Assembly: GCA_016206925.1 (NCBI GenBank)
Contig: JACQQS010000028.1
Span: 1-62,514, forward strand
Source: Candidatus Omnitrophota bacterium
GTDB lineage: Bacteria; Omnitrophota; Omnitrophia; Omnitrophales; JACQQS01
Length of the DNA stretch: 62,514 nt
Reading direction: 5' to 3'
This document shows positions 16,956 through 22,168 of this stretch, in pieces; the stretch's first letter is position 1, and each line of letters opens with the position of its first letter. Made by a program: the position numbers and the translations under genes. The notes below the pieces were generated by a model. The model worked only from the letters and a program-made list of their open reading frames with translations, did not search any database and was not told where the DNA came from.

Positions 16956-17667
16956 TGATAATCCCCACCCCCTTAAGTGAACGTTCATGGATGAAAAGTC
17001 CTGCCAAGAAAGTAATGGCGCCGATCATCTCAAACGATTCCTCCAGCACAATCTCTATTTGCCAAAGCCACTCTGCCGTTCGGCGGTTCATAAAATTAGC
17101 GAACCATTCAAACCCCATCGATCCCAGCAAAAATAGTACTGCACCTAAATAGAGATACTTTAACGTTTCGCCGGAGGCGCAAGTGCGGCTGCGCACAAAT
17201 GCCGCAAGAGAAATCAATCCGGCAATGATGAACGGCCCGATTCCTATAGGCCAAGTATTTGAATCGGGATTTAAAAAACTCTGCGGCCAAATGCGGAGAA
17301 TCCGCCGCGCCACTGCTTTACCCAAGGTTTCGTGGAGCATCGCTACTTCGTCAAGCGAAAGCATGAGCAGCGTAACGGCCAGTACGAACCACACGCGCCT
17401 TTCCTCCACGGCCAAACTGCCTCGTGCGCACCGGATCGCGGTCAACGCACCCAGTATCAGAACAAAACTGGAAAACCAGGTGGGCACGTTACTTTCAAAA
17501 TTCAGATGAAACAGGCGCTCTAGATGCCAAAATCGATCCCCAGCCCACAAAGCCGCAAAATGGCAAAGAACAAGAATGACCGTTACAGCCAAAAGAAGAC
17601 GGATAACGTTTTTGATATCGGTATCCGCACAAGTCATGTGAGTCTTTGTAGTCAATGTATTTTTCAT
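16903..17667 (-). CDS. Unknown membrane protein with conserved-looking acidic/His residues
   Basis: The 254-residue protein has about six to seven membrane segments. Charged residues lie within or at the edge of helices: LMLSLDEVAMLHETLG and LWQIEIVLEESFEMIGA, a pattern that could bind metal or act in catalysis, but I do not recognise the family. The start at 17667 is chosen because GGAAGG lies about 8 bp upstream. It opens the minus-strand glycosyltransferase series after the hicBA insertion, so a role in the polysaccharide is likely by context only. Confidence 0.65.
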   Translation of the reverse strand: MKNTLTTKTHMTCADTDIKNVIRLLLAVTVILVLCHFAALWAGDRFWHLERLFHLNFESNVPTWFSSFVLILGALTAIRCARGSLAVEERRVWFVLAVTLLMLSLDEVAMLHETLGKAVARRILRIWPQSFLNPDSNTWPIGIGPFIIAGLISLAAFVRSRTCASGETLKYLYLGAVLFLLGSMGFEWFANFMNRRTAEWLWQIEIVLEESFEMIGAITFLAGLFIHERSLKGVGIINEDRQRYYPNAQPRYTP

Positions 17668-17712
17668 AGCCACCACCTTCCGGAATCGGACCGGCACAAG
17701 AAATCGGCCGCA

Positions 17713-17741
17713 TTGACACCTGCAACCCCTTCAGATAAACT
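17713..17741 (+). promoter_or_regulatory. Promoter of hicBA
   Basis: TTGACA (17713-17718) and TAAACT (17736-17741) are spaced by 17 bp, and the first plus-strand gene begins at 17785 with its own RBS. The fit to the sigma70 consensus is very good. No clear operator palindrome was seen. Confidence 0.6.
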
Positions 17742-17784
17742 TAATCACAGCAGCGAAAATATTGACTTAAAGAAAGGATTGCTT

Positions 17785-18003
17785 ATGAAGATTCGAGTGC
17801 GCTTAGAATGCGACGAAGATGGTATGTTCGTTATAACATCACCGTCTCTTCCCGGCTGTATTTCACAAGGCAAAACGGAGCGCGAGGCTCTAAAAAATTT
17901 CAGGGAGGCTGTCCGCCTCCATGTTAGAACTCTGCTCGAAGACAGCCGCCCCTTGTTCCGAAAGCGTAACGTTAAAGAAACAAGTCTTGAGGTTTCTTTG
18001 TGA
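17785..18003 (+). CDS. hicB: HicB-family antitoxin
   Basis: The 72-residue protein has the HicB partial RNase-H-like fold: IRVRLECDEDGMFVITSPSLPGCISQGKTEREALKNFREAV. The ATG at 17785 is supported by AAAGGA 7 bp upstream; the longer frame to 17524 runs antisense to the membrane-protein gene and is not used. It should bind and inhibit the HicA RNase encoded next, with which it overlaps by 4 bp. No separate DNA-binding tail is visible, as in short HicB forms. Confidence 0.85.
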   Translation: MKIRVRLECDEDGMFVITSPSLPGCISQGKTEREALKNFREAVRLHVRTLLEDSRPLFRKRNVKETSLEVSL

Positions 18004-18272: not shown

Positions 18273-18294
18273 ACTTGGCAAGCACTTGGCAAGC
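18273..18294. repeat. Perfect 11-bp tandem duplication
   Basis: ACTTGGCAAGC occurs twice head to tail (18273-18283 and 18284-18294) in the convergent gap between hicA and the UDP-sugar dehydrogenase. Each copy carries CTTG/CAAG arms. Function is unknown; it may just mark replication slippage. Confidence 0.6.
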
Positions 18295-18317
18295 AAATTA
18301 CTGCCATACGGCACACT

Positions 18318-19655
18318 CTAGATTCTTACGACGATTTTCCGGGAGTCGGAAAAGGGCCGTGTGGCGTTCCGGGTGTCGAGAATGAGAGCTGCGTGCTTTA
18401 AGATGAACTCGTAATCAAAGCATTTGTGGTTGGTAAGGATGATAGAAAGATCGCTCTCTTCAAGCGCGCTTTGAAACGCACCGTTTTTGGCCTGAGTGGA
18501 AATAGAGCGCCAGGCCTTATCATGCAGACGGACTTCGGGCACGTAGGGATCGGCAAATGAAACTTCCGCACCGCCTTTTTCGAGAAGCTCAATCACTTCA
18601 AGGGCCGGCGACTCGCGTATGTCGTCGATATTGGCTTTGTAGGTGACGCCCAGAACGAGAATTTTCGCGCCATTCAGCGCTTTCTTTTTTTCGTTTAGTA
18701 TCGCGCGTGATTTCTCCACCACAAATTCCGGCATGCTGGCGTTTACCTCACTCGCCAGTTCAATAAAGCGCGGGCTGAATCCGTGAATACGCGCTTTCCA
18801 GGCGAGGTAATGCGGATCGATGGGAATGCAGTGCCCGCCGAGGCCCGGTCCCGGATAAAAAGGCATGAATCCAAACGGCTTGGTTGCTGCCGCATCGATG
18901 ATTTCCCAAATATCCACGCCGAGCTTTGCGCTCATTTTACACAGTTCATTTACCAGACCGATATTCACGCTGCGGAATGTATTCTCGAGAAGCTTTACCA
19001 TTTCCGCCGCGCTACAGGAGGAAACGGAATGAACTTTCTCGATGGCAAGTTTGTAGAACTCTACCGCCAAGCGGGTGCATTCCTCGGTAACGCCACCGAC
19101 GACTTTGGGGATGTTTTTGGTGTTGTAAACAGGATTGCCCGGATCCACGCGCTCGGGCGAGAATGCCAGGAACACATCCTTGCCCACTTTAAATCCCTTT
19201 TCTTCTATCATGGGCAGAATAACTTCTTCGGTGGTCCCGGGATAGGTCGTGCTTTCAAGAATAACGAGCATGCCTTCGTGCAGGTACTTCACGATTTCCT
19301 GCGTGGCATTCACAATATAGGAGATGTCCGGATCCTTTGATTTCCGGAGTGGCGTGGGCACGCAGATGTTCACGGTGTCGAGATTACGTATTATCGAAAA
19401 GTCAGTTGTGGCGCGAAGCTTTTTTTGACTCACAAGATCGCTGAAGAGCTTCCCGTCCACATCCTGGATGTAACATTCCTTACGGTTAATGGCATCGACC
19501 TTGCGCGAATCGATATCGATACCGACCGTCTCTACGCCCGCACGCGCAAATTCCACCGCAAGCGGCAGGCCAACGTAACCCAGACCAATGACCCCGGCGC
19601 GAACTTGTCGGGTTGCGATCTTTTCCTCAATGGTCACGGTAACTTGTGCATCCAT
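18318..19655 (-). CDS. UDP-N-acetyl-hexosamine 6-dehydrogenase (WbpA/WecC family)
   Basis: The 445-residue protein begins with the NAD-binding GVIGLGYVGLPLAVEFARAG and has the family sequence ESTTYPGTTEEVI, AFSPERVDPGN, a central dimer helix, the catalytic Cys in GLGGHCIPIDPHYL and VLGVTYKANIDDIRESPAL. This group oxidises UDP-GlcNAc or UDP-ManNAc to the uronic acid using 2 NAD+. The PERVDPGN form is closest to UDP-GlcNAc dehydrogenases. With the epimerase at 22169 it could give UDP-GalNAcA-type donors. A good RBS (GGAGAG) precedes the ATG. Confidence 0.9.
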   Translation of the reverse strand: MDAQVTVTIEEKIATRQVRAGVIGLGYVGLPLAVEFARAGVETVGIDIDSRKVDAINRKECYIQDVDGKLFSDLVSQKKLRATTDFSIIRNLDTVNICVPTPLRKSKDPDISYIVNATQEIVKYLHEGMLVILESTTYPGTTEEVILPMIEEKGFKVGKDVFLAFSPERVDPGNPVYNTKNIPKVVGGVTEECTRLAVEFYKLAIEKVHSVSSCSAAEMVKLLENTFRSVNIGLVNELCKMSAKLGVDIWEIIDAAATKPFGFMPFYPGPGLGGHCIPIDPHYLAWKARIHGFSPRFIELASEVNASMPEFVVEKSRAILNEKKKALNGAKILVLGVTYKANIDDIRESPALEVIELLEKGGAEVSFADPYVPEVRLHDKAWRSISTQAKNGAFQSALEESDLSIILTNHKCFDYEFILKHAALILDTRNATRPFSDSRKIVVRI

Positions 19656-19675
19656 TTATCTCTCCTTTCAGAAAC

Positions 19676-19707
19676 GAGGTAACGGTGTATCGGAGTGTCG
19701 GAGTAAC
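19676..19707 (+). repeat. Octamer array, GGAGTAAC type (4 units)
   Basis: Four 8-bp units lie in tandem: GAGGTAAC, GGTGTATC, GGAGTGTC, GGAGTAAC. They sit 14 bp beyond the stop of the four-helix-bundle gene. The block AACGGTGTATCGGAGTG recurs in inverted orientation with one mismatch on the other side of that gene (AACGGAGTATCGGAGTG on the minus strand near 20173-20189). Confidence 0.75.
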
Positions 19708-19721
19708 AAAAAAACAAAAGA

Positions 19722-20141
19722 TTACGTGGCTCTGATCAACCATTTCTCCGCGCTATCAATCATTAAAACAATCTGTGAAATTATCCGATCACATTTTTGA
19801 TCAAATCGTGACGCCTCATCGGCTGGCACATAACCGCACCGACGTGCTATTTCGATCCATACCTGCGTCTCACAAGCTTCTGATTCAGCGTCGCTCAACT
19901 TGCTAATGAAGGCAGCTTTGTATCTTCTTTTTCGCCAAGCTTCTGCGATATTGCCGCACACCGAGCGTGATGATCTTCTAATTTGGTCGGTCAACGAATA
20001 CCGCTCTTCTTTCGGAAAGCCCCTGCTGCAATCAAAAATCTCCATCGCCAAGTTCATCGCACCGATGAACACGTCCAGCTCTTTGAAATTCGTTACGTAC
20101 GCTCTCGCTTTCTTGCTTTCTTTCTCTATCAGTTCCGGCAT
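19722..20141 (-). CDS. Four-helix-bundle protein (S23 / 23S rRNA intervening-sequence protein family)
   Basis: The 139-residue helical protein shows the family pattern: FKELDVFIGAMNLAMEIF, then SLTDQIRRSSRSVCGNIAEAW, YKAAFISKLSDAESEACETQVWIEIARRCGYV and a last helix. Relatives are coded in rRNA intervening sequences, as stand-alone chromosomal genes and as the Avd accessory of diversity-generating retroelements; no reverse transcriptase or rRNA is nearby here. The ATG at 20141 is preferred because upstream residues (a GTG start at 20174 is possible) are translated octamer repeat. The gene lies between inverted octamer arrays and splits glmS from the UDP-sugar dehydrogenase. Function is not established. 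Confidence 0.85.
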   Translation of the reverse strand: MPELIEKESKKARAYVTNFKELDVFIGAMNLAMEIFDCSRGFPKEERYSLTDQIRRSSRSVCGNIAEAWRKRRYKAAFISKLSDAESEACETQVWIEIARRCGYVPADEASRFDQKCDRIISQIVLMIDSAEKWLIRAT

Positions 20142-20161
20142 TTTCCATTCCCAGTTACCCC

Positions 20162-20209
20162 GCCACTCACTCACTCCGATACTCCGTTACTCCGTTACTC
20201 CATTACTCC
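20162..20209 (-). repeat. Octamer array, GTTACTCC type (6 units), inverted to 19676-19707
   Basis: Six 8-bp units run on the plus strand: GCCACTCA, CTCACTCC, GATACTCC, GTTACTCC, GTTACTCC, ATTACTCC. This is the reverse complement of the GGAGTAAC unit found beyond the other end of the four-helix-bundle gene. The array lies between that gene and the glmS stop. Confidence 0.8.
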
Positions 20210-20238
20210 CTCTCGCTCTTCCGCCGTTTCACCCATAC

Positions 20239-22077
20239 TCACTCCACGGTGACGCTTTTCGCGAGGTTCCGCGGTTGATCGACATCCGTTCCGCGGAGCG
20301 TCGCCACATAATAGGCAAGATACTGCAAAGGCAGAACGCTTAGAAAGGGCGACAAAAATTCGCTCGTTTCCGGAATGTAAATCACGTCATCAGCCAGCCT
20401 TTCAATCGCCGTATTCCCTTCTGTTGTGACAACAATAAGCTTTCCGGACCGGGCCTTCACTTCCTGAATATTTGAAACCATCTTTTCGTACACGGACGAC
20501 TCGGGCATGATGGCCACGACCGGCATGTTTTCATCGATGAGCGCAATGGGACCGTGCTTCATTTCGCCGGCCGGATGCCCCGTCGCATGAATGTAGGCAA
20601 TTTCCTTGATCTTCAGCGCACCTTCGTGTGCGTTCGGATAGTTAATGCCCCGCGCCAGGAATAGAAAATCGCGGGCCTGGAAATATTTCTCGGCGATTTC
20701 CAGTACCCGGTCCTTGGCTGAGATAATCTTCCGCATTTTATCCGGCAGCTCCCGGAATTCATCGGCCAGTCTTCTGTAAGTGCCTTCGTTGACGGAGCCG
20801 CGTTCGCGCGCCCACCAAAGGCTGAGTGCAAACAAGACCCCGAGCTGGGCCGTATAGGCTTTCGTGGAAGCCACGCCGATTTCAGGGCCTGCATGCGTGT
20901 AAATAACCGCGTCGGATTCACGCGTAACCGTACTGCCGAGCACATTGCAAATGGAAAGCGCCTTAAAGCCGCTCTGCTTCGCGTGGCGCAGGCCCATCAG
21001 CGTATCGATCGTCTCGCCCGATTGCGTGATGGAGAGAAGTAATTCTTTTTTTTGAGGAATGAGTTTGCGGTAGCGAAATTCGGAAGACACATCGACTTCC
21101 GCCGGAATGCCGGACAGGCTCTCAAAGAAAAACTTTCCGGTAAGCGCTGCGTGCCATGACGTACCGCAGGCTTGTATCACGACGCGCTCGACTTTTTTTA
21201 ACTGCGAAACGTCAAACCGCAACACGTCGAAAAGTTTGGGTTCCCCGCCATTTTCAAAACGCATACGGAAAAGACGATCGATAACAGCGGGCTGCTCCTC
21301 AATTTCCTTGAGCATAAAGTGCTCAAAACCTTCCTTGCTGACATCCTTCGCGTCCCAATCGATGCGCACCACTTTTTCTCTGATGCGTTCCCCGGCGTTG
21401 GAGGTGATCTTAACCTCATCCCTTGATACAACCGCCATTTGGTAATCCTCAAGAAAAACGGCATTTCGGGTAAAATCAACGATGGCCGGAGCATCGGAAG
21501 CGACAAAATTCTCTCCGTTGCCGAGGCCCACCACAAGCGGGCTCCCATTTCTGGCCGCTATAAAAACATTTTCTTCACGGCTGCTGACGACACAGAAGGC
21601 ATAACTGCCCTTGATTTCACCGATGGTCCTCCGGACAGATTCCTCCAATCCACAGCCCTGGATTACATGAAATCGCTCGATGAGGTGCGCCAGCACTTCG
21701 GTGTCGGTGTCCGAAGTAAACTTGTGCCCCTCCCGGATTAAATGCGATTTTAATGTATCGTGGTTTTCAATGATGCCGTTATGAACGATGGCCACCGTGT
21801 TTGTGCAATCAGAATGCGGATGGGCGTTTCGTTCGGACGGCTCGCCGTGCGTCGCCCAGCGCGTATGGCCGATGCCGAGCGTTCCTGCAACCGGATTTTC
21901 CTTGACACGCATGACGAGGCGCGTAAGTTTCCCGGGCTCTTTCAAAATCGAAAGGGTTCCTTGATTTACCGTCGCGAGTCCGGCCGAGTCGTAGCCGCGG
22001 TATTCAAGGCGCGACAACGCTTTCAAGAGAACTGTGTCGATTTTCCTGCTGCCAATGTAACCTACAATTCCGCACAT
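20239..22077 (-). CDS. glmS: Glutamine--fructose-6-phosphate aminotransferase (isomerizing)
   Basis: The 612-residue enzyme starts MCGIVGYIG, placing the catalytic Cys directly after the initiator Met; this decides the start at 22077 over the longer frame. The N-terminal glutaminase has GHTRWATHGEPSERNAHPH; two SIS domains follow (CGTSWHAALTGKFFFE, SITQSGETIDT, ALKIKEIAYIHATGHPAGEMKHGP) and the C-terminus ends DQPRNLAKSVTVE. It makes glucosamine-6-phosphate, the entry to UDP-GlcNAc for this polysaccharide and for cell wall. No glmS ribozyme core was recognised upstream. Confidence 0.97.
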   Translation of the reverse strand: MCGIVGYIGSRKIDTVLLKALSRLEYRGYDSAGLATVNQGTLSILKEPGKLTRLVMRVKENPVAGTLGIGHTRWATHGEPSERNAHPHSDCTNTVAIVHNGIIENHDTLKSHLIREGHKFTSDTDTEVLAHLIERFHVIQGCGLEESVRRTIGEIKGSYAFCVVSSREENVFIAARNGSPLVVGLGNGENFVASDAPAIVDFTRNAVFLEDYQMAVVSRDEVKITSNAGERIREKVVRIDWDAKDVSKEGFEHFMLKEIEEQPAVIDRLFRMRFENGGEPKLFDVLRFDVSQLKKVERVVIQACGTSWHAALTGKFFFESLSGIPAEVDVSSEFRYRKLIPQKKELLLSITQSGETIDTLMGLRHAKQSGFKALSICNVLGSTVTRESDAVIYTHAGPEIGVASTKAYTAQLGVLFALSLWWARERGSVNEGTYRRLADEFRELPDKMRKIISAKDRVLEIAEKYFQARDFLFLARGINYPNAHEGALKIKEIAYIHATGHPAGEMKHGPIALIDENMPVVAIMPESSVYEKMVSNIQEVKARSGKLIVVTTEGNTAIERLADDVIYIPETSEFLSPFLSVLPLQYLAYYVATLRGTDVDQPRNLAKSVTVE

Positions 22078-22168
22078 AAGAATAAATCCCTTTCGTACTA
22101 TGCAATCAAAATAGCTAGATAAGGCACAAGCGCCGACGGGGCAACCGGTTAAAGCGTGCAAGCCAAAT

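Follow-up and report, generated by a model that had tools for sequence, protein, structure and literature searches.

The S23 gene (23S_rRNA_IVP) of the window, that is, of the whole 62,514-nucleotide stretch of Candidatus Omnitrophota DNA analysed here (assembly GCA_016206925.1, contig JACQQS010000028.1), is enclosed by inverted arrays of octamers, and we consider it probable, with appreciable reservations, that this arrangement represents a widespread selfish mobile element of the intervening-sequence (IVS) type, which is bounded by inverted arrays of 7- or 8-nt units, inserts just past the stop codon of a gene with the same orientation and encodes an S23 protein inferred to recognise its own array. 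IVSs of 23S rRNA with an S23 ORF are known from Coxiella, Leptospira and Salmonella. The S23 protein folds as a four-helix bundle and is related to Avd (PMC10053308); IVSs with S23 have been placed in rRNA genes (PMC4990558, PMC11270868), and that of Coxiella is 428 nt long, forms a stem around the S23 ORF and is cut by RNase III (PMC4990558).

Anatomy of the S23 cassette in the window

The S23 gene occupies positions 19722 to 20141 on the minus strand (139 aa, ATG at 20141), and its ORF is open further upstream to a GTG at 20174, within the right array. Profile searches matched the protein to PF05635 (E=7e-30; 103.7 bits, cut-off 33.8) and to bAvd PF22296 with E = 7e-5, under the cut-off of the latter profile. 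Its relatives in the PDB, 2gsc (XCC0516) and 2rld, comprise five chains in each entry, which fits a pentameric S23. The left, gene-downstream array (19670 to 19707, AGAAACGAGGTAACGGTGTATCGGAGTGTCGGAGTAAC) consists of roughly 3.5 repeats of the octamer (A/G)(A/T)CGGAGT, and the right, gene-upstream array (20165 to 20212, ACTCACTCACTCCGATACTCCGTTACTCCGTTACTCCATTACTCCCTC), which is its inverted-repeat partner, of about 5, with TRF reporting period 8, 4.6 copies and 93% matches at 20173-20209 (no strand is assigned to either array). The preliminary description had already placed the gene between inverted octamer arrays, with four copies on one side and six on the other; the arrays were confirmed and the copy numbers were not (about 3.5 and 4.6–5). 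Positions 19670-19704 are complementary to 20165-20199 at 80% across 35 nt, and the local arm score of 21 was reached by none of 2000 dinucleotide shuffles (maximum 16) and was unique among 3091 window positions with the same spacing. The flank blocks AACGGTGTATCGGAGTG (plus strand) and AACGGAGTATCGGAGTG (minus strand) do, as originally noted, differ by one base in 17. Chance or low complexity as the source of the arms was ruled out by the shuffles together with the control ORFs and arm permutations reported below.

The whole cassette (19670 to 20212, minus strand, about 540 bp) is predicted, as gene-strand RNA, to fold so that the arrays pair into a stem and the ORF is looped out between them (-163 kcal/mol; z = -2.0 relative to shuffles, a modest value). 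Upstream and co-directional lies glmS (20239 to 22161, minus strand), with its stop codon about 27 bp ahead of the array, and downstream, also co-directional, a wecC-type UDP-sugar dehydrogenase gene (18318 to 19655, minus strand), which starts about 15 bp beyond the left array; both names derive from sequence reading. The terminal inverted repeats, which are predicted to be able to pair around the ORF, satisfy the stem expected of an IVS, and the location between these two genes, not in a 23S rRNA gene, does not satisfy the position. The feature is accordingly filed as an S23 element, IVS-like and outside rRNA, and by position it is not a 23S rRNA IVS.

Elsewhere in the window, a perfect 11-bp tandem duplicate (ACTTGGCAAGC, 18273-18295) lies directly past the UDP-sugar dehydrogenase gene, and a plus-strand ORF at 17524-18003, on the strand opposite to the polysaccharide genes, has an end resembling a HicB antitoxin by eye. 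Heptamer stretches of the form AAC(G/A)(G/A)GN also occur, inverted, at 2020-2049 and 2930-2952, around plus-strand ORFs at 2199-2447 and 2428-2829, the latter with a resemblance by eye to retropepsin-like proteases. A second cassette at 2020-2952 is not claimed, the arm score of 12 being within the shuffle range (maximum 15).

Occurrence across genomes and phyla

Five PF05635 genes were found in this Omnitrophota genome and all five have inverted arrays, with a different unit in each: AAGTnnT (L001), the window octamer, AAGTAGC (L003) and AT-rich units (L004, L005). Among 34 S23 loci of this genome and others of its order, 25 had arms with z > 4. Scanning GTDB species genomes provided 80 further S23 loci from about 20 phyla, and overall z>4 was obtained at 75 of the 112 S23 loci (a few of which are one locus drawn from two collections) compared with 9 of 173 control ORFs from the same loci (medians 5.4 vs 0.2), three of the nine control positives being additional PF05635 genes. 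As a positive control for the arm method, the RAYT genes of Omnitrophota relatives (L292-L321), which have long REP-type inverted ends, gave z>4 in 17/26. S23 loci of cyanobacterial and Riemerella plasmids had inverted arms in nine of nine (z 6–11). Convincing arms were absent at some S23 loci (L018, L032, L084, L107), and phages yielded no S23 matches.

In two cyanobacterial plasmids (L323, L325) the S23 element sits within a CRISPR locus, with cas6 on one side and cas4 on the other; the locus of L325 is type I-D from its Cas1d annotation. A statistical association of the 23S rRNA IVP with CRISPR has reportedly been noticed, and S23 elements within CRISPR loci may explain it.

The array unit and its match to the S23 lineage

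Upstream arms had a period of 7 (or 14) in 67 of 84 and of 8 in 16, with other periods nearly absent, and within the unit certain positions are near-constant and the rest variable. Units of opposite arms resemble each other nearly as closely as those of a single arm, with 2.03 differences against 1.76. An element's own arms scored 21.8 on average. When arms were permuted among elements the score was 10.8 +/- 0.30 and never rose above 12.0 in 10,000 permutations. Own arms match far better than foreign ones, and the two arms are thus held similar even though the unit varies by element. Unit similarity climbed with S23 identity even when cross-phylum pairs alone were considered (Mantel r = 0.25, 0/999 permutations), and the unit was common to 55/142 cross-phylum pairs above 60% S23 identity against approximately 2% below 50%. 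As far as comparison of sequences can establish it, the array unit is passed on together with the S23 lineage, phylum boundaries included. Arrays survive near synonymous saturation (L089/L091 and L076/L077, dS above 1.5), and the S23 gene itself is under purifying selection (dN/dS 0.05–0.35). Recognition of its own array by the S23 protein is an inference, for which there are no binding data.

Empty, filled and exchanged sites

The comparison of occupied and unoccupied sites in Prevotella was confined to one genus, with 60 genomes drawn, and to the sdhA-sdhB junction. About 30 genomes were empty at this junction, usually with a few tens of nt between the two genes and without an array; 14 were filled with array, S23 gene and array. 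In a pair with 93.7% identical sdhA, the empty junction (L192) reads ...aacTAA / AATGGC... and the filled one (L183) ...aacTAG / TTGACGAGTTGAC...S23...ACTTGTCAACT / AAAACATAATACAATGGC...; no target-site duplication was evident at this pair, the single one read in detail. Three further pairs (L152/L153, L160/L162, L159/L161) have sdhA genes 91–94% identical and unrelated elements at the junction (S23 nucleotide identity 64–68%), and the S23 proteins found at this site do not form a single clade. In the order to which the window belongs, the leuB-asd junction is filled in this genome and the two genes are directly adjacent in several relatives. The same junction in G004 (L266) holds an array hairpin without a gene (score 31, shuffle maximum 17); gene-less arrays at leuB-asd of L276, L279 and L287 were below significance.

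Nearly identical elements were also found at unrelated sites, with 92% identity over 463 bp (L064/L068), 91% over 491 bp (L040/L045) and 87% over 461 bp (L056/L059), in each case from array to array between unrelated flanking genes; homology between such element pairs ends at the arrays. In a filtered all-against-all blastn, just 37 of the 680 pairs that shared an S23 core in their DNA also had flanks in common, and phyla are intermixed in the S23 tree. The family thereby combines terminal inverted repeats with empty sites, as expected of MITEs. These comparisons show that array, gene and array together form the unit that has been gained, exchanged and spread between sites and phyla. The case for mobility rests on sister copies and on other taxa, and does not include the glmS-wecC site of the window.

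The suggestion of a mobile cassette in the preliminary description is thus supported by elements of about 90% identity, both arrays included, between unrelated genes. It was held there that the idea would fail if relatives kept the gene at the same site without arrays, or if arrays were equally common near unrelated genes. Both conditions were examined and each favoured the cassette: relatives lacked array and gene together at sdhA-sdhB and leuB-asd, and arrays were far from equally common at the control ORFs.

Position and orientation

Where the neighbouring genes were large and close (71 loci), the upstream one was co-directional at 69, and at 57 the downstream one was too, while adjacent genes of the same loci agree in orientation in 97/124. 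The element lies just past a stop codon and apparently lives on read-through. Such a placement is compatible with either an RNA step or selection for expression, without discriminating between the two.

Arrays without S23 genes

The control for arrays without S23 comprised about 840 kb of stretches, not whole genomes. No inverted array pairs were detected in 379 kb from three S23-less relatives; G000 and G032 had inverted array pairs, gene-less hairpins among them, and the S23-less pairs in the remaining loci were mostly arrays of neighbouring S23 genes or short hairpins. Gene-less inverted array hairpins were observed in S23-carrying genomes (L209:9577-9757, L248:1516-1626, L253:7282-7475 and the leuB-asd gap of L266). 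Gene-less hairpins are possibly MITE-like deletion derivatives.

Proposed mechanism and alternatives

In the mechanism that we propose, the S23 protein, as an oligomeric relative of Avd, would recognise its own array as a single strand or hairpin, of DNA or RNA, and together with host enzymes would bring about copying and insertion of the element. The element is inserted as a whole immediately past the stop codon of a gene read in the same direction, mostly within an operon, and would depend on read-through from that gene. In the RNA, the arrays would pair into a stem enclosing the ORF, and RNase III could cut this stem as it does in the 23S rRNA IVS, with the result that the host operon would suffer little harm. 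The element contains no recombinase, and a partner enzyme was not identified; with no reverse transcriptase found in this genome and no tie between Y1 transposases and the element, the joining enzyme remains unidentified. The G-U wobble asymmetry predicted if a sense-RNA stem were selected was not significant (170 vs 150, p = 0.29), so sense-RNA pairing was not retained as the selected feature, and whether RNA or DNA is involved is unresolved.

The arrays might instead have come first, as independent heptamer hairpin repeats that serve as landing sites for S23, a view for which the gene-less inverted arrays at L209:9577-9757, in G032 and at leuB-asd of G004 could be cited. We regard it as unlikely, because array and gene are both missing from empty sdhA-sdhB sites, the unit tracks the S23 lineage across phyla, the 379 kb of S23-less relatives held no inverted pair and the gene-less forms can be explained by deletion. 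It is quite unlikely, too, that array and S23 constitute a stationary device for RNA processing or attenuation, passed down with the operon. Co-directionality at 69/71 loci, the stem-loop fold, conserved arrays, purifying selection and retention of the site in Dysgonomonas and Prevotella would all be expected of such a module, but its presence is patchy, unrelated elements replace each other in hosts 91–94% identical, one element occurs at unrelated sites and the neighbours are of unrelated kinds (sdh, leuB, CRISPR, plasmid transfer). A stationary module is contradicted as a full account, and a secondary role of this kind may still exist.

REPs are single palindromes that a Y1 transposase moves. 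The S23 element could be a MITE-like sequence mobilised in trans by a Y1/RAYT transposase, with S23 as cargo or helper. Inverted ends, small size and gene-less derivatives are consistent with this, Y1_Tnp was found in 30/39 genomes searched, and in G012 the leuB-asd junction (L285) holds a RAYT-like ORF remnant next to a single heptamer array. Against this, six S23 carriers (G011, G012, G019, G026, G034, G035) have no Y1_Tnp match, the match in this genome is weak only, and the RAYT genes of relatives bear REP-type palindromes and not heptamer arrays; a Y1/RAYT mover is not supported and we strongly doubt it. Retrotransposition by a host reverse transcriptase, with S23 in an Avd-like role, appears very improbable: RVT_1 was unmatched in this genome (86% complete) despite five S23 copies. 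In its favour are the kinship of S23 with Avd (PMC10053308), the sub-threshold PF22296 match and an orientation bias compatible with an RNA step. A more general suggestion, offered only tentatively and quite possibly wrong, is that one small oligomeric nucleic-acid-binding protein, S23, with cognate tandem heptamer or octamer ends and the help of housekeeping enzymes, suffices for movement between genes and phyla by an element that lacks a recombinase of its own, and that such elements are the source of much unexplained 7-mer repeat DNA in bacteria.

Relation to known systems and significance

The S23 element and the 23S rRNA IVS have in common an ORF in a loop, a terminal inverted-repeat stem, a similar size, patchy occurrence and horizontal spread. 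The S23 element differs in lying past protein genes in operons and in its tandem 7–8-nt array ends, with a unit particular to each element that follows the lineage, which are not reported in the cited IVS papers. Avd of diversity-generating retroelements belongs to the same fold family, whereas the window S23 resides in a genome without an RVT_1 match and shows no sign of template or variable repeats, so that it does not qualify as such a retroelement. With REP/RAYT systems and MITEs, S23 elements share small size, inverted repeats, gene-less derivatives and intergenic location; unlike REP/RAYT, they could not be tied to a transposase in searches that covered the Y1 family. The heptamer repeats of Xanthomonas, Nostoc, Microcystis and Beggiatoaceae resemble S23 arrays in their unit of 7, their constant core with variable positions and their intergenic location past ORFs, although the window unit is 8 nt in comparison with the 7 nt of STRR-type bacterial heptamer repeats. 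Arrays resembling such heptamer repeats were seen here beside S23 genes of cyanobacterial plasmids. Published accounts of the Xanthomonas (GGGAATC; 70–75 convergent pairs) and Nostoc heptamers (PMC4692102) and of the TAACTGA repeats of Beggiatoaceae and cyanobacteria (PMC4679880) do not mention S23. No literature linking S23 genes to heptamer arrays was found, in a search that left out most subscription papers and all preprints.

Genes for S23, annotated as 'four helix bundle protein', are common in bacteria and their role is unknown, and the way in which 23S rRNA IVSs spread is unresolved; a cassette whose ends can be recognised, for which empty sites exist and whose protein and array are matched makes both testable. 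Where an S23 gene stands next to a CRISPR system or another operon, it may merely be hitch-hiking, as L323 and L325 caution. S23 elements also offer one origin for the over-represented heptamer repeats of cyanobacteria, perhaps of Xanthomonas as well, and may be behind many of the unexplained short repeats in bacterial genomes.
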